From Acetomicrobium sp. S15 = DSM 107314 (GTDB taxonomy: Bacteria > Synergistota > Synergistia > Synergistales > Thermosynergistaceae), in NCBI RefSeq assembly GCF_016125955.1, contig NZ_JADEVE010000336.1, forward strand, positions 62,001 through 126,000: a stretch of DNA of 64,000 nucleotides, given 5' to 3'. The notes below the pieces were generated by a model. The model was not told where the DNA came from, ran no database searches, and was given only the letters and a program-made list of their open reading frames with translations. Below, one piece after another: positions 2,142-32,288 of this stretch; positions within the stretch are counted from its first letter, which is position 1, and each line of letters begins with the position of its first letter. The translations under genes were made by a program, and so were the position numbers.

Positions 2142-3347
2142 ATGAAGGTGTTGGTATTGAATTGCGGGAGTTCTTCCATCAAGTATCAGGTTTTTGACAT
2201 GCGGACAGAAGAGGTGTTGGCAAAGGGGCTCATCGAGCGCGTAGGTATAGAGGGGTCCAGGATCAAACACCAGAACATGAGGGCGGAGGAGCTCAAGCAG
2301 GATGTGAGCGTGCCAAACCATAAAGTCGGTGTCAAACTGCTGCTGGACCTGCTCGTCGACGAGACGCATGGCGTGCTGAAGAGCCTGGACGAGATTGTAG
2401 CCGTAGGACATCGCGTCGTCCACGGAGGAGAGGCCTTTGCGAGGTCGGTAATCGTGAGCAAGGAGGTTTTGGACGCTGTGGAGGACTGCGTGCCTTTGGC
2501 CCCCCTCCATAATCCGGCCAACCTCATGGGGATAAGGGCTATGATGGATACGCTGCCGAATGTGCCACAAGTGGCAGTATTCGATACGGCATTCCATCAA
2601 ACAATGCCGCCTCATGCCTATATGTTTGGTCTGCCTTACCGCTGCTACAAGGAGTACAAGGTGAGGCGTTACGGCTTCCACGGCACCAGCCATTATTATG
2701 TGGCCAACAGGGCTGCCGAAATGCTCGGGCGGCCGGTGGAGGATTTGAAGATCGTCACATGTCATTTGGGCAACGGCAGTTCTCTGACGGCTGTTGACGG
2801 AGGCAAGTCGGTAGACACCTCTTTGGGCTTCGGCACCGTCCCGGGTGTCATTATGGGGACGAGGTCCGGCGATTTGGACCCGACTGCGATCCTGTACATC
2901 ATGGAGCAGGAAGGACTTGACTCCAAAGCCATGAGCCATATCCTCCACAAGGAGAGCGGTCTCTTGGGCCTCACCGGCATAAGCAGCGATTTGAGGGATG
3001 TGGAAGCGGCAGCTGAGTCTCAAAACGAACGGGCCCTCTTGGCCATTGAGATGCTGGCTTACGGGGTGCGGAAATACATAGGGGCCTATGCTGCGGCGAT
3101 GGGCGGGCTCGATGCGATCGTCTTCACGGCCGGCATAGGTGAGAACTCGGATGTCATACGCGCCAAGGCGTGCGAGGGTTTGGCCTTTTTGGGCGCCAAG
3201 CTGGATTCGAATAAAAACAAGGTGCGCGGAAAGGAAGCCTTTATCAGCACTGACGATTCAAAGGTCGCCATCCTGGTGGTTCCCACAAATGAAGAACTGG
3301 TGATCGCTCGCGACACCTGGGCTTTGGTCTCCGATGCCGCTCGATAA
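2142..3347 (+). CDS. ackA: acetate kinase
   Basis: A full-length acetate kinase of 401 residues. It starts with VLVLNCGSSSIKYQ (phosphate-binding strand of the ASKHA fold), followed by GHRVVHGG, DTAFHQTMP, RYGFHGTSH, HLGNGSS and the C-terminal FTAGIGENS motif. It converts acetyl phosphate and ADP to acetate and ATP, or the reverse. The start at 2142 is preceded by GGGAGG at 2128-2133. No pta gene is adjacent. In this setting it is likely the ATP-yielding step of acetate-forming fermentation downstream of 2-oxoacid oxidation. It is divergent from tmcAL, with 88 bases between the starts. Confidence 0.97.
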   Translation: MKVLVLNCGSSSIKYQVFDMRTEEVLAKGLIERVGIEGSRIKHQNMRAEELKQDVSVPNHKVGVKLLLDLLVDETHGVLKSLDEIVAVGHRVVHGGEAFARSVIVSKEVLDAVEDCVPLAPLHNPANLMGIRAMMDTLPNVPQVAVFDTAFHQTMPPHAYMFGLPYRCYKEYKVRRYGFHGTSHYYVANRAAEMLGRPVEDLKIVTCHLGNGSSLTAVDGGKSVDTSLGFGTVPGVIMGTRSGDLDPTAILYIMEQEGLDSKAMSHILHKESGLLGLTGISSDLRDVEAAAESQNERALLAIEMLAYGVRKYIGAYAAAMGGLDAIVFTAGIGENSDVIRAKACEGLAFLGAKLDSNKNKVRGKEAFISTDDSKVAILVVPTNEELVIARDTWALVSDAAR

Positions 3348-3375
3348 ATGTCGTTTCTAAACGGGGGATCCGGTC

Positions 3376-3744
3376 ACGATTTGCGGCATAGGCGTTGACA
3401 TCTGTTCTATTTCCCGCATCGAGAGGGCGCTGACAAGAGACGGTTTCCTTAAAAAAGCCTTTGTGCCCGAGGAGATCGAGTACGCTCGCCGTAAACGCCG
3501 TCCTGCTGTGCATCTTGCGTCGGCCTTCGCAGCGCGCGAGGCGCTTGCCAAAGCTTCAGGCTTGGGCCTTGCCAAGATGGGACTTCGTGAGGCTTGGGTG
3601 AGAAGGGATGAGGTAGGTGGTCCTCGAATTTGCCTTTCGCCCGCTCTCGAAGAGGAGTTCGCCAAAAAGGGGATTCGTAAAATTTGGCTAAGTATAAGCC
3701 ACGAAGGCGATTTTGCCGTCGCTGTGGTGGTATTGGAGGATTAG
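3376..3744 (+). CDS. acpS: holo-[acyl-carrier-protein] synthase AcpS (non-canonical start)
   Basis: The frame encodes CGIGVDICSISRIERAL, the N-terminal strand of AcpS with the magnesium-binding Asp, then the FAAREALAKA helix with the second metal-binding acidic residue, and ISHEGDFAVAVVVLE at the end. AcpS moves 4'-phosphopantetheine from CoA to acyl carrier protein. No ATG, GTG or TTG lies between the in-frame stop at 3358-3360 and the essential GVD motif. Aligned with Bacillus AcpS (MIYGIGLD), ACG at 3376 takes the place of the initiator ATG; ATT at 3379 is the alternative. A G-rich stretch (3363-3367) could act as a weak ribosome binding site. The length from 3376 is 122 residues, normal for the family. 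The first canonical start (GTG 3463) would remove the active site. Confidence 0.8.
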   Translation, partial: TICGIGVDICSISRIERALTRDGFLKKAFVPEEIEYARRKRRPAVHLASAFAAREALAKASGLGLAKMGLREAWVRRDEVGGPRICLSPALEEEFAKKGIRKIWLSISHEGDFAVAVVVLED

Positions 3745-3748
3745 GCGC

Positions 3749-5281
3749 ATGATCGGACTCTATAGCGCTGAAGCAGCGAGGGCCTGTGACGAGCAGGCCG
3801 CAAGTCTCCTCGGTTTTTCTGGCGCGGTGATGATGGAAAATGCCGGAAGGAACGCTACGGATGCGCTTTTGGAGGAATTCCCCGGTATCGACGAGGTGTG
3901 CATTTTTGCCGGACCTGGAAATAACGGCGGCGACGGATTCGTAATAGCGCGTCACCTCCTCGTTCGAGGCATACGTTCCACCGTTATTTTAGCTTTCCCA
4001 GAAGAGCGATCTAAAGGCGATGCGGCGCTGAACCTCGCCATAGCAAGGCGATGCGGGATTCCGATTTTATCCTCTCGTGAAATGTCCGACGAGGCAATAA
4101 GCGAGATCGTGTCCAGATCCGACCTCGTAGTTGACGCCCTGCTTGGCACGGGAAGTTCCGGACCACCGAGGGGCGAAATTGGGCGATTGATACGTCTGAC
4201 GCCCAAAGCCAGGCGCGTAGCTGCCGTGGACATACCGAGCGGCATAGACGCGTCAACTGGGGCTGTGGCGGCTGAGGCGGTGTGGGCAGATCTCACAATT
4301 ACCATGCTAATTCCAAAGGTGGGGCTTTTCGTGATGCCGGGGGCGGATTACGCAGGCAAGGTCTCAGTGGTAGATATAGGAGTTCCGCTCGAATCCTTGT
4401 CGCTGCCGGCTGCCGAGGTCAATGCCATAGAAAGGCTCGATGCTGCGCGCATGCTTCCTCCTCGTCCCATGAATATGCATAAGGGAGACAGAGGTTGCGT
4501 GGCGATAGTCGGCGGTTCGTCCATCTATAAGGGAGCCCCGCTGCTGGCCGCGCTGGGCGCCCTCAGGGGCGGAGCGGGGATAGCGTTATTGGTGCTCCCG
4601 GAGGAGATTTCTATGCCGCTGGCTGCCGCGCTGCCGGAAGCCATCATCTTGCCTGCACCGTCTCGCGAGGGCGGTTTGGCTCAAGAGGCGTGGGAGGGCG
4701 TTATAGTTCCGTGGTCTAAGAGGATAGATGCTCTCGTAATAGGTCCCGGCATGGGACGCGGCAAAGAGGCGATGGCCTTGGTGAGGCGCGTCTGGGATGA
4801 ATGGAGAGGCCCGATGGTGGTCGATGCCGATGCTCTGTATTGCTTGAGTCAATCCGGAGAATTGCATCGCAGAGACGACGTGATGCTTACGCCTCACGAG
4901 GCTGAAGCCGCGAGATTGTTGGAGAGCGATGCGTCATCCGTTGGCAATGCCCGCCTTGCTGCGGTCAAGGCGCTCGCCGAGCGATACGGGCCCGCACTGT
5001 TGAAGGGTCCTCGCACGCTGATCTGCGATGGCCGACAGACAGCGGTGATTTTAGAAGGTCATCAGGCGCTATCCGTTCCGGGGTCCGGCGACGTGTTGAG
5101 CGGCCTGGTCGGCGCCTTCATGGCAATGGGGCTTTCTCCTTATGAAGCCGGCGTCGTCGGTGCTCACATCCACGGCAGGGTCGGAACTATTTTGTACGAA
5201 GAGGGCGGATTCGACGGCCACTTGGCCAGGGAGATAGCGGACCATATCCCACGGGTCGTTGAGGAGCTGCGCTATGTATAA
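3749..5281 (+). CDS. nnr: bifunctional NAD(P)H-hydrate epimerase / ADP-dependent dehydratase
   Basis: A 510-residue fusion of two repair enzymes. Residues about 1-210 form the YjeF_N epimerase domain, with GPGNNGGDGFVIARHL as the NAD(P)HX-binding loop. Residues about 225-505 form the ribokinase-like dehydratase domain with VIGPGMGRG, VVDADAL, LTPHEAEAARL and the catalytic GSGDVLSG motif. Together they convert damaged hydrated NADH/NADPH back to the active cofactors. The start ATG at 3749 follows GGAGG at 3735-3739; upstream codons of the open frame overlap acpS and are not needed. Only 4 bases separate it from the acpS stop, and the acpS-nnr pairing is common in bacteria. Confidence 0.95.
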   Translation: MIGLYSAEAARACDEQAASLLGFSGAVMMENAGRNATDALLEEFPGIDEVCIFAGPGNNGGDGFVIARHLLVRGIRSTVILAFPEERSKGDAALNLAIARRCGIPILSSREMSDEAISEIVSRSDLVVDALLGTGSSGPPRGEIGRLIRLTPKARRVAAVDIPSGIDASTGAVAAEAVWADLTITMLIPKVGLFVMPGADYAGKVSVVDIGVPLESLSLPAAEVNAIERLDAARMLPPRPMNMHKGDRGCVAIVGGSSIYKGAPLLAALGALRGGAGIALLVLPEEISMPLAAALPEAIILPAPSREGGLAQEAWEGVIVPWSKRIDALVIGPGMGRGKEAMALVRRVWDEWRGPMVVDADALYCLSQSGELHRRDDVMLTPHEAEAARLLESDASSVGNARLAAVKALAERYGPALLKGPRTLICDGRQTAVILEGHQALSVPGSGDVLSGLVGAFMAMGLSPYEAGVVGAHIHGRVGTILYEEGGFDGHLAREIADHIPRVVEELRYV

Positions 5282-6750: not shown

Positions 6751-6779
6751 TTGATTTATACATTATCCCGTGGCATAAT
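6751..6779 (+). promoter_or_regulatory. probable sigma70-type promoter of korDABC
   Basis: A TTGATT -35 box (6751-6756) is separated by 17 bases from a CATAAT -10 box (6774-6779), in the gap between tsaB and korD. Transcription would begin near 6787 and leave a leader of about 36 bases before the korD ATG. A weaker pair, TTGAAA (6707) and TATACA (6728), lies upstream with a 15-base spacer. Called from the sequence only. Confidence 0.5.
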
Positions 6780-6822
6780 GTTGAAGATTGTGATTACATG
6801 GGCAAATCTGGCGAGGGGGGAG

Positions 6823-7038
6823 ATGGAAAGCGTGGCGAGGAAGTTTTCTGTGACCATCAATACTGCCTGGTGCAAGGGGTGTGGCCTCTGTGTTGCGATC
6901 TGTCCCAAGTCCGTCCTGGAGCTTAACGAGCACATCAAGGCAGAGCCAGTGCGAATGGAAGATTGTATAGGATGTCACCAGTGTGACTATTCGTGTCCGG
7001 ACCTGGCCATCACGGTGACAAAAGAGGGGAGTGATTGA
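6823..7038 (+). CDS. korD: 2-oxoacid:ferredoxin oxidoreductase, ferredoxin (delta) subunit
   Basis: A 71-residue protein with two 4Fe-4S binding motifs, CKGCGLCVAICP and CIGCHQCDYSCP. It is the electron-transfer subunit of a four-subunit 2-oxoacid:ferredoxin oxidoreductase, probably passing electrons from the thiamine site to free ferredoxin. I chose ATG 6823 because GAGGGGGG at 6813-6820 sits just upstream; the frame is open back to 6751, but that part overlaps a good promoter and has no family resemblance. It is the first gene of korDABC, 3 bases before korA. The gene order points to the 2-oxoglutarate class, although other 2-oxoacids are possible. Confidence 0.88.
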   Translation: MESVARKFSVTINTAWCKGCGLCVAICPKSVLELNEHIKAEPVRMEDCIGCHQCDYSCPDLAITVTKEGSD

Positions 7039-7041
7039 GAT

Positions 7042-8175
7042 ATGGCTGAGGTGGCATTTTGGCAAGGCAACAAAGCGATAGCGATGGGAGCTATAGCCGG
7101 CGGATGCACATTTTTTAGCGGCTATCCCATAACCCCGTCTTCGGAGATAGCCGAGACATTAGCGGAGGAATTGCCGAAAATCGGCGGTCGGTTCATCCAG
7201 ATGGAAGACGAAATCGGCGGCATAGCTGCAGCCATAGGGGCGTCCATAGCCGGTCGCAAGGCCATGACAGCCACGTCTGGTCCCGGATTCTCGTTGAAAC
7301 AGGAAAATTTGGGGTTGGCGTATATGGCCGAGATACCGCTCGTGGTGGTCGACATCATGAGAGGCGGTCCGTCTACGGGACTGCCCACCAGGGTATCGCA
7401 GCAAGATGTGATGCAGGCGAGATGGGGGACTCACGGCGATCACGCTACCATAGCCTACGCTCCTTCGTCAGTGCAGGAGTGTTTCGAGCTGACAATAGCA
7501 GCTTTTAATGCGTCTGAGCGCTTCCGTCAACCCGTCATCATATTGGGCGATGAAGTTGTGGGGCACATGAGGGAAAAGATCGTCATCCCAGATGCCGGGT
7601 CGTATCAGGTGGTAAACAGAAAGCGCCCAACTGCAGATCCGGAAGACTTCGTGCCTTATAAGCCCGATCCGAGCGACGATGTTCCGCCGATGGCTTCCTT
7701 TGGAGACGGTTATCGATGGCACGTAACCGGTCTCACTCACGATGAATGGGGTTTTCCCACGGACGAGCCAAGCGAGATCGAAACCAAGATAAAGAGGCTC
7801 GTGCAGAAGGTCAATCGCTTCCGCAAGGATATCGTGCGATACGAGGTTTTTTACGGGGAGGACGCGAAGGTATTGATTGTTTCCTACGGCAGCGTGGCAC
7901 GATCCTCCTTGAGGGCAGTGCGAGAAGCCAGGCAAAAAGGGCTCAAGGTCGGGCACTTCAGACCTATAACGCTTTGGCCCTTTCCTGACGAGGAGCTTAA
8001 AGAACTGGCAAGTCAAGTCGACGTCGTGATAGTGCCCGAACTGAACTGCGGCCAGATGCTCCTCGAGGTCGAAAGAGCCGTAAATGGAAAAGCTCCCGTC
8101 GTGGGCAAGAGCTTGGTAAACGGCGAACTGTTCCAGCCCTCGGATATACTTTCTGCCATCGAGGAGGTGGCTTAG
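7042..8175 (+). CDS. korA: 2-oxoacid:ferredoxin oxidoreductase alpha subunit
   Basis: A 377-residue alpha subunit holding the pyrimidine-binding and transketolase C-like domains. FFSGYPITPSSEIAE near residue 30 and TATSGPGFSL are the standard KorA motifs for binding 2-oxoacid and thiamine diphosphate. The YRWHVTGLTHDEWG segment near residue 225 is typical of the KorA/VorB group. It catalyses oxidative decarboxylation of a 2-oxoacid, probably 2-oxoglutarate, to its acyl-CoA with reduction of ferredoxin. It follows korD after 3 bases and abuts korB without a gap. Substrate choice cannot be read with certainty from sequence. Confidence 0.9.
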   Translation: MAEVAFWQGNKAIAMGAIAGGCTFFSGYPITPSSEIAETLAEELPKIGGRFIQMEDEIGGIAAAIGASIAGRKAMTATSGPGFSLKQENLGLAYMAEIPLVVVDIMRGGPSTGLPTRVSQQDVMQARWGTHGDHATIAYAPSSVQECFELTIAAFNASERFRQPVIILGDEVVGHMREKIVIPDAGSYQVVNRKRPTADPEDFVPYKPDPSDDVPPMASFGDGYRWHVTGLTHDEWGFPTDEPSEIETKIKRLVQKVNRFRKDIVRYEVFYGEDAKVLIVSYGSVARSSLRAVREARQKGLKVGHFRPITLWPFPDEELKELASQVDVVIVPELNCGQMLLEVERAVNGKAPVVGKSLVNGELFQPSDILSAIEEVA

Positions 8176-11630: not shown

Positions 11631-12559
11631 TGCCGTGGAAACGCAAGCACCTCATCGATGTGGACGACTGGGAGAGGGAAGATTTCGAGCTCCTCTTAGA
11701 GCAGACTTCGAACATGGATTCGATCCTCGATCGCTCTATAAAAAAGGCCCCGGCGCTCAGGGGTAAGATAGTAGTCAACATATTCTACGAGCCCTCTACG
11801 CGGACGCGCACCTCCTTTGAGATAGCCGGCAAACTCTTAAGCGCTGACGTCATAAACTGGACCGCTTCGGGTTCCAGCGCGGCCAAGGGCGAGTCGCTTC
11901 GCGACACGATATGGACGCTCGAGGCGATGGGCGCGGATGCCGTTGTCATTCGACACGGCGAGGTCGGCGTGCCATATTATTTGGCAGAAAAGCTAAAAAA
12001 AGCTTCCGTCATAAACGGCGGTGACGGAACTCATGCCCATCCTACCCAAGCATTGCTCGATCTGTATACGGCCTGGAGGGAACTCGGATCTCTGGACGGC
12101 AAAAAGGTGGCCATAGTAGGAGACATCTTGCACAGTCGAGTTGCCAGAAGCGACATATACGCCTTTAAAGCGGTGGGAGCCGAGGTGTGTTTGTCGGGTC
12201 CTTCTACGCTTATGCCGACAGATATAAATTCGCTAAATGCTACATATGAGCCGAATATAGCCGAGGCGATCGATGGAGCGGATGTCGTTTACATGCTCCG
12301 TATCCAAAGGGAGCGCCAGGATGCCGGATTGTTCCCGTCGTTGGACGAATACCACAAGCGCTACGGCCTTACGGACAAGCTTCTCGGGAAAGCTAAAAAG
12401 GGAGCGCTGGTGATGCACCCGGGACCCATAAACAGAGGCGTCGAAATCGCTTCCTCTGTGGCGGACGGGCCTCAGAGCTTCATATTGAAGCAAGTAAGAG
12501 CTGGCGTAGCTGTCAGAATGGCGTTGCTTTATCTAATGCTTGGAGGGGTGAAAGAATGA
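11630..12559 (+). CDS. pyrB: aspartate carbamoyltransferase catalytic subunit
   Basis: A 309-residue catalytic chain with FYEPSTRTRTSFE near residue 50 (carbamoyl phosphate binding), HPTQALLDLYT (carbamoyl phosphate and aspartate contacts) and the late HPGPINRG motif. It condenses carbamoyl phosphate with aspartate to make N-carbamoyl-aspartate, the first committed pyrimidine step. No pyrI regulatory gene is adjacent, so the enzyme is probably a simple trimer controlled through PyrR. It overlaps pyrR by 1 base and pyrC by 4 bases. Confidence 0.97.
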   Translation: MPWKRKHLIDVDDWEREDFELLLEQTSNMDSILDRSIKKAPALRGKIVVNIFYEPSTRTRTSFEIAGKLLSADVINWTASGSSAAKGESLRDTIWTLEAMGADAVVIRHGEVGVPYYLAEKLKKASVINGGDGTHAHPTQALLDLYTAWRELGSLDGKKVAIVGDILHSRVARSDIYAFKAVGAEVCLSGPSTLMPTDINSLNATYEPNIAEAIDGADVVYMLRIQRERQDAGLFPSLDEYHKRYGLTDKLLGKAKKGALVMHPGPINRGVEIASSVADGPQSFILKQVRAGVAVRMALLYLMLGGVKE

Positions 12560-18443: not shown

Positions 18444-18852
18444 ATTATGTCAGACTCCTCTCTATAGTGCTGTAAATTCCACCGTCAACGAGATAAATGG
18501 CCGTCTCGGCTTTAGGCGATAGCGCAGGCGCTAAAAGGAACCGAACAGGAGGAGTAAATTGCCGATGACCGAAGTAAAGATAAACTCTATAATAATCTCT
18601 TCTTCCAATCTTCGTAGATAAGGAGCGCTTCCGATCCGAAGAGCGCCGTCGGCTGAGTGTCCTATGCAGCCGTTGAGGAATAAAGAAAGAACATCGGCGG
18701 CGCCGATCGATATGAGAGATCGAAAAAGCCCTAAGGTCTACGATAGCCGATATGGCACGAGGTTAATAAAACCATCGGCAGCAATGATATAATAAATTAC
18801 AAATTCTTTTTGGACAGAATCTGAGTAAAATCTTTTTATGGGAGGCTTTGCC
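18444..18852. other. 409-bp gap between birA and prfB, no recognised gene
   Basis: This divergent spacer holds the prfB promoter at its right end. The plus strand has a strong AGGAGGAG near 18549-18556 ahead of a very short frame (ATG near 18566, MTEVKINSIIIS, 18 codons). The minus strand has a 66-codon open stretch across about 18530-18730 that reads like protein but has no ATG or GTG start; both may be remnants of a lost gene. A GC-rich imperfect hairpin spans about 18622-18646. I found no RNA family, tRNA or repeat that I could name. Confidence 0.4.
18785..18793 (+). promoter_or_regulatory. extended -10 promoter of prfB
   Basis: TG, one base, then a perfect TATAAT (18788-18793). The best -35 candidate is TTAATA at 18763-18768, with a long 19-base spacer, so the extended -10 is the main evidence. 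Transcription would start near 18800, about 53 bases before the prfB ATG. Confidence 0.5.
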
Positions 18853-19966
18853 ATGAATATGTTACCCGTTTCTACGACGATGGAAGAACTGCGCTCGATC
18901 TTCCGCGAGCTGCAGGACAGCCTTTGACCCCCTTGAACTTGAAAGTCAGGTCAACGATCTATTAGCCGACAGTTCTTCTCCCGAGTTTTGGTCGCGATCT
19001 GACTCCAGCGAAAAACTAAGAGCTTTGTCTCGCATCCAGGAAAAATTAGACCTTTGGAAGAGGCTGAGCCGTGAATTCGAAGAGGTCGAAGCGCTTGCGG
19101 AAATCTTAGACGAAGAAGAGGATCCGGAGTTGTTGGAGGAGTTTTACTCTCGCGCAAGGGCGCTGAAAGATGAAATCGAATCGTTCCAGATAAAACTCCT
19201 AATGGACGAGGAGCATGACAATTGCAATGCCATATTGAGCATTCATCCTGGAGCGGGGGGGTTGGACTCTCAGGATTGGGCCAAAATGCTTTTGCGCATG
19301 TACTTGCGCTGGGCGGAAAGGCGCAAGTATGATGCGGAAGTGGCAGAATTGCTCGAGGATGAAGGGGCTGGCATCAAGTCTGCCACCGTCTTTATTAAGG
19401 GCCAGTTTGCATATGGTTATTTGAAGGCGGAGCGCGGCATCCATCGCCTGGTGCGCATATCTCCCTTCGATGCCGCAAGAAGACGGCATACGAGCTTTGC
19501 CTCCGTTGAAGTGCTGCCCGAGCTTCCAGAGGACGTAGATGTCGAAATCCGCCCGGAAGATCTCAAAATAGATACGTTTAGAGCGAGCGGCGCAGGCGGC
19601 CAATACGTGAACATGACGGACTCGGCGGTGCGCATAACCCACTTGCCTACAGGTTTAGTGGTGAGTTGCCAAAAAGAGCGCTCACAGCACATGAACAGGC
19701 AGGTGGCGATGAAGATCTTGAGGGCGCGCCTATATGAACTTCGCCTTCAGGAACGACAGGCAGAGCTGGAGGCGATTCAGGGTGAGAAAAAGGAGATAGG
19801 CTGGGGCAACCAGATCCGCTCCTATGTTTTGCACCCTTATACGCTGGTGAAAGACCATCGCACCGGCGTAGAGATAGGCAATGTAGCCGCTGTACTCGAT
19901 GGAGATATAGATCCTTTCATCGTGGCTTTTTTGAAAAACCACAAGGTCAATACTATGAATAGGTGA
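18853..19966 (+). CDS. prfB: peptide chain release factor 2, with programmed +1 frameshift
   Basis: The gene is read in two frames: codons 1-24 at 18853-18924, then a +1 shift at an in-frame TGA (18925-18927), then 18926-19966, giving 370 residues. The joined protein has the RF2 pattern: LVRISPFDAARRRHTSF with the SPF anticodon-mimic motif and SGAGGQYVN with GGQ at residues 248-250. RF2 releases the chain at UGA and UAA. GGGAGG at 18840-18845 sets the ATG start. Low RF2 lets the ribosome shift at TGA and make more RF2, a well-known autoregulation. The next gene starts within its stop codon. Confidence 0.97.
18914..18928 (+). promoter_or_regulatory. RF2 programmed +1 frameshift site
   Basis: The CTTTGAC slippery element (18922-18928) matches the conserved RF2 site: peptidyl-tRNA on CTT slips to TTT and the ribosome resumes at GAC. 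An AGGA (18914-18917) just upstream takes the place of the internal Shine-Dalgarno that stimulates the shift. Confidence 0.95.
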
Positions 19967-32080: not shown

Positions 32081-32125
32081 AACGCTCCTCAAGCTGCACT
32101 TAAATAAAGGCAAAGGCGACTGCGC

Positions 32126-32154
32126 TTGCCAATGACAAACGGACCGATTATAAT
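32126..32154 (+). promoter_or_regulatory. promoter of tRNA-Gly
   Basis: TTGCCA (32126-32131), a 17-base spacer and a perfect TATAAT (32149-32154). Transcription would begin near 32161, 14 bases before the mature tRNA. Confidence 0.8.
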
Positions 32155-32174
32155 ACGAACTACAATATAAACAT

Positions 32175-32250
32175 GCGGACATAGCTCAGCTGGTAGAGCA
32201 TCGGCTTCCCAAGCCGAGGGTCGCGGGTTCGAATCCCGTTGTCCGCTCCA
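32175..32250 (+). tRNA. tRNA-Gly (anticodon CCC)
   Basis: A complete 76-base cloverleaf. The 7-bp acceptor stem pairs GCGGACA with TGTCCGC. The D arm is GCTC...GAGC, the anticodon stem TCGGC/GCCGA encloses the loop TTCCCAA, and the T arm contains GGTTCGAATCC. CCA is encoded and the discriminator is T (U), as in glycine tRNAs. It reads GGG codons. It has its own promoter and terminator and stands alone between glpX and the ATPase operon. Confidence 0.96.
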
Positions 32251-32260
32251 GGGAAAGGGG

Positions 32261-32288
32261 AGGGGGAGGGAAATCCTCCTCCTTTTTT
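32261..32288 (+). terminator. intrinsic terminator after tRNA-Gly
   Basis: A 9-bp stem with one G-T pair (32261-32269 with 32275-32283), a 5-base loop and a run of T to 32288, starting 10 bases after the tRNA CCA end. Confidence 0.85.

Follow-up and report, generated by a model that had tools for sequence, protein, structure and literature searches.

A probable ACG start codon for acpS, shared by two species of the Synergistales

The small gene acpS is required by bacteria for fatty acid synthesis, and its copy in the stretch of Acetomicrobium sp. S15 = DSM 107314 DNA analysed here (64,000 nucleotides, hereafter the window) raises the question of where its translation begins. The mechanical list of open reading frames holds the gene only as 3463–3744, a product of 93 amino acids that does not contain the GIGVD motif. 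Read directly, the frame continues after its 5′ limiting stop (Table 1) through ACG 3361, GGG, GAT, CCG, GTC 3373, ACG 3376, ATT 3379, TGC, GGC and ATA 3388 to GGC GTT GAC at 3391–3399. There is no ATG, GTG or TTG between TAA 3358–3360 and the GIGVD motif (3385–3399), just as the original prediction had claimed for the interval from the stop to GVD; the earliest canonical start of the frame is GTG 3463, internal to the protein.

Family models and the N-terminal GIGxD motif, present in this frame as GIGVD and conserved in relatives, place the product of 3376–3744 in AcpS, with a predicted enzyme activity. It scores 74.4 bits with TIGR00516 (cut-off 59.8) and 46.2 bits with PF01648 (cut-off 25). 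A PF01648 search matched no other protein in the window genome or its congener, and the idea that another PPTase renders this acpS copy dispensable was accordingly set aside for both.

Table 1 Features of the acpS locus in the window
Feature	Positions	Strand	Basis or remarks
ackA, upstream neighbour of acpS	2142–3347	+	TIGR00016
16-codon ORF in a different frame, its ATG abutting the ackA stop; origin of the putative frameshift	3348–3398	+	sequence
In-frame stop TAA, 5′ limit of the acpS frame	3358–3360	+	sequence
GGGGG, Shine–Dalgarno-like run	3363–3367	+	complementary to CCUCC in the 16S tail, with one G–U pair
GTC, rival start codon	3373–3375	+	Shine–Dalgarno spacing 4; column occupied by ATG in 2 of 145 loci
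ACG, proposed start codon	3376–3378	+	start column in 139 of 145 loci; Shine–Dalgarno spacing 7; same in congener
acpS, predicted holo-[acyl-carrier-protein] synthase	3376–3744	+	ACG 3376 to stop TAG 3742–3744
ATT, rival start codon	3379–3381	+	Shine–Dalgarno spacing 10
NAD(P)H-hydrate epimerase/dehydratase gene, downstream neighbour of acpS	3749–5281	+	TIGR00196 and TIGR00197

The non-canonical start looks inherited

The family of the window is represented by two genomes, both drafts (438 and about 150 contigs). The second, Synergistales bacterium 54_24, is a separately assembled MAG of another species, referred to here as the congener, with a DNA identity to the window of 91.2% over 8.7 kb and 90.3% over 43 kb. 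The congener agrees with the window at all 26 bases of 3358–3383, a stretch that holds the stop and the G run as well as GTC, ACG and ATT, so the absence of a canonical start is common to the two species. At about 91% identity, simple arithmetic gives such an unchanged run about once in eleven by chance, and identity alone is therefore no sign that every base is under selection. The dN/dS ratio between the two genes is 0.24 over 3379–3741 and 0.34 over the few sites of 3379–3462, 5′ of GTG 3463. The latter value indicates that the N-terminal part is maintained as protein and, judged by these ratios, acpS is under purifying selection, that part included.

The original prediction had left room for a sequencing error or a recent ATG-to-ACG mutation. 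Both are very unlikely, because the same ACG occurs in a second, separately assembled species; the comparison with a close relative that had been proposed as a check returned ACG at the position of 3376. A sequencing or assembly error, or decay of the gene, could appeal to the draft state of both genomes, but it would have to accommodate identical bases in two species, an intact frame under purifying selection and the lack of a second PF01648 protein in either genome, and we give it almost no credence. The non-canonical start looks real and inherited, as the sister species has the identical oddity.

ACG lies in the start column of the order

An AcpS search over 180 genomes of the order gave matches in 145, at 146 places, and we compared the start regions of the 145 acpS loci other than that of the window, leaving out the 35 genomes with no match. 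The column of ACG 3376 holds ATG in 98 loci, GTG in 23 and TTG in 18, that is, a canonical start in 139 of 145. Six loci depart from this: the congener has ACG, L013 and L026 carry ATG one codon earlier, L014 and L015 (genomes G014 and G023) lack a canonical start at that place, and L094 is truncated by a contig end. The Synergistales enzymes with a canonical start share family, N-terminal motif and start column with AcpS of the window, whereas their genes use ATG, GTG or TTG where that of the window has ACG. The expectation that ACG 3376 falls at the Met position of Bacillus AcpS was borne out: query residue 2 aligns with residue 2 of PDB chain 1f7l_A, which we take to be Bacillus subtilis AcpS, and ACG corresponds to its residue 1.

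Relatives with ATG at 3376 had been named as the observation that would count against a missing start. ATG is found there in other families of the order and is absent from the one congener. This distribution points to ACG as a derived state that arose before the window species and the congener diverged.

Spacing and the choice among ACG, ATT and GTC

The 16S tail of the window genome reads GGATCACCTCCTTTCT, and pairing of its CCUCC with GGGGG amounts to −5.7 kcal/mol by the script's hairpin evaluation, a weak Shine–Dalgarno interaction. Spacing was taken as the number of bases that separate the start codon from the position facing the 5′ A of ACCUCC, which places GTC, ACG and ATT at 4, 7 and 10. 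An own-genome reference was formed from 26 window genes with one Shine–Dalgarno-linked canonical start, chosen by strongest pairing; spacing is 7 or 8 in 10 of these, 10 in 3 and 4 in none. A spacing of 8 is seen for ackA, the gene downstream of acpS and the ATA of infC. Across the order, 85 of the 139 acpS genes have an ungapped Shine–Dalgarno sequence, with a modal spacing of 5–6; spacing 4 occurs in 9, 7 in 6 and 10 in 4. The start column and own-genome spacing favour ACG, and order-wide spacing does not separate ACG from GTC.

A start one codon later, at ATT 3379, would yield a protein one residue shorter (fMet-CGIGVD). ATT 3379 is also conserved in the congener, and ATT is better known than ACG as a natural start: it is an accepted table-11 start and opens E. 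coli infC, with ATC serving in Streptomyces infC (PMC5472188). One E. coli reporter study puts ACG at 0.1–1.5% of ATG, against 7.2–21.6% for a group that includes ATT; it records no signal for ATT in another context, and its authors note that the values of non-canonical codons differ between contexts (PMC6925171). Shorter AcpS N-termini exist among the models, the NF011257 match setting in at profile position 3 and query residue 5. Set against this are the low counts for spacing 10 in both reference sets and the use of the preceding column as the start in 139 of 145 loci, which leave ATT an unlikely choice.

A start one codon earlier, at GTC 3373, would make ACG the codon for Thr2 (M-TICGIGVD). 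GTC does serve as a start in Streptomyces sigR, where IF3 keeps expression low (PMC5472188). N-termini resembling MTICGIGVD occur at L033 and L034, though the search pattern itself contained TICGIGVD; the order includes two loci whose ATG sits at the GTC column, and spacing 4 is about as common as 7 among the order's acpS genes. However, no own-genome reference gene has spacing 4 and those two loci are the only ones of 145 to use the column, so that GTC merits little credence. ACG is favoured over ATT by alignment column and Shine–Dalgarno spacing, short of proof. RNA structure at the acpS start was considered separately and rejected, 3330–3420 folding more weakly than shuffles (z +1.53).

Initiator tRNA and infC

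In both genomes the initiator-type anticodon stem lies within a tRNA-Met gene whose anticodon is CAT. The pattern GGGCTNNNAACCC, used to look for an initiator tRNA of different anticodon, occurs at nine places in the two genomes, and the idea was rejected: among the eight places examined (the ninth, on G001 C141, was left out), only the two with CAT lie in tRNA genes.

The gene infC, which encodes IF3, is present in both genomes (L154 on G000 C415, match 92428–92922; L153 on G001 C30). In each, its frame opens directly after a TGA adjoining its Shine–Dalgarno sequence, and there is no ATG, GTG or TTG ahead of the conserved N-terminal region. The most likely infC start in both is an ATA whose spacing from GGAGGU is 8. 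With infC lacking a canonical start and ATA at its Shine–Dalgarno sequence, the lineage already seems to have one indispensable gene that begins on a rare codon.

Like the window acpS, infC exists as a single, indispensable gene, has a Shine–Dalgarno sequence and keeps a conserved non-canonical start. The infC start differs from ATG in its third base, and the gene regulates itself by way of IF3; the acpS start differs in its second base, and acpS has no evident feedback. The sigR gene (PMC5472188) too is functional, keeps a non-canonical start and was overlooked by annotation, but it is a laboratory-tested regulatory gene with GTC, held low by IF3, whereas acpS is a housekeeping enzyme gene with ACG. 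Model mRNAs with AUG, AUU and ACG are among the materials of an in vitro IF3 study (PMC8266586); the available part of a further paper yielded no ACG data (PMC10158994).

An unlikely +1 frameshift and the control frames

A different route into the acpS frame would begin at ATG 3348 and shift by +1 on the G run, adding an N-terminal extension. ATG 3348 and the G run are both conserved in the congener, and prfB in the same window indicates that +1 shifting exists here. Yet ATG 3348 has no Shine–Dalgarno sequence, the three substitutions that fall in its frame are all non-synonymous, the G run is already explained as a Shine–Dalgarno sequence and the ACG column is the start in 139 of 145 relatives. 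The two marks of programmed +1 frameshifting of the prfB kind, an upstream Shine–Dalgarno sequence and a selected upstream frame, are thus both missing at acpS, and we regard this route as highly improbable. A prfB-like shift at 3393–3399 (CGT TGA C), where the frame of ATG 3348 ends, was also rejected, because the TTGAC there simply follows from the codons for Val and Asp, and such a shift would put other residues in place of the conserved GIGV.

The prfB gene itself (18853–19966) has the classical programmed +1 frameshift, with ATG 18853, CTT TGA C at 18922–18928 and RF2 in the next frame.

As a control, 51 conserved frames were taken from the 43 kb common to the window and the congener. Two lack any canonical start (18451–18762 and 32107–32286, both minus strand) and are assumed to be shadow or intergenic frames. 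In five, the first canonical start lies more than 30 codons in, acpS (34) being one. Another (18857–19963, 56 codons) belongs to prfB, for which a +1 frameshift is known; those at 12397 (53) and 16152 (35) overlap the frame before them in their 5′ stretch, and that at 6766–7155 on the minus strand (31) lies opposite the plus-strand ORF 6751–7038.

Proposed mode of initiation

We consider it probable that acpS is translated from ACG 3376 by weak initiation with the ordinary initiator tRNA, GGGGG acting as the Shine–Dalgarno sequence. The rare-codon start that the original prediction had listed as one option thereby gains support from an ACG shared by two species, the 139 of 145 start column and the Shine–Dalgarno spacing. 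The ribosome would be positioned by GGGGG 3363–3367, and the initiator tRNA (anticodon CAU) would pair with ACG across a second-position mismatch, so that the protein begins with fMet. Initiation would be weak, IF3 discriminating against the codon. The ancestral gene would have had ATG, GTG or TTG at the position of 3376, with the change occurring before the two species of the family split. The change would have been tolerated, presumably as little AcpS enzyme suffices. We infer from sequence that ACG rather than ATT or GTC is the codon used, as we do the yield and any regulatory role or IF3 control.

With no canonical start, conservation of that state in one congener and a Shine–Dalgarno run at a suitable distance, acpS of the window has the features of genes with non-canonical starts of the infC and sigR kind, and our best reading is that it extends this small class in bacteria. 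If so, a conserved ACG would bring to the list of natural bacterial starts a codon that mismatches at its second position. Hecht et al. (2017) reportedly covered all 64 codons in E. coli. Our literature search, whose scope excluded most subscription papers, found no report of a natural bacterial ACG start and nothing linking acpS or its enzyme name with start codons. The window acpS would offer a simple reporter system for how far initiation drifts in a single-copy gene.

A second candidate and divergent AcpS-like proteins

G014 and G023 are complete, single-contig genomes of one genus, in a family other than that of the window. In their acpS loci (on C1 of each), a perfect AAAGGAGGU precedes, with a spacing of 7, a CTG that stands two codons 5′ of the usual column, about 15 bases ahead of position 1501, and the nearby canonical codon, a GTG, falls within the Shine–Dalgarno sequence. 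From this spacing in two nearly identical sequences, CTG seems most likely to be the start of both genes. A third member of the genus, G005 (L018), has ATG at the usual column. The CTG loci suggest that a rare acpS start may have arisen more than once in the order. A broader proposal is that the acpS of the Synergistales has switched to non-canonical starts on more than one occasion (ACG here, CTG elsewhere) and that weak, IF3-sensitive initiation sets the level of the sole PPTase, tying ACP activation to the translation machinery; we hold it to be speculative and rather improbable.

Six of the no-match genomes were tested with PF01648 and four gave a positive (L168–L171, in G004, G028, G002 and G017), which indicates that the window AcpS query misses divergent members. 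Divergent AcpS-like enzymes thus exist in the order, and the PF01648 protein of G017 has an in-frame TAG.
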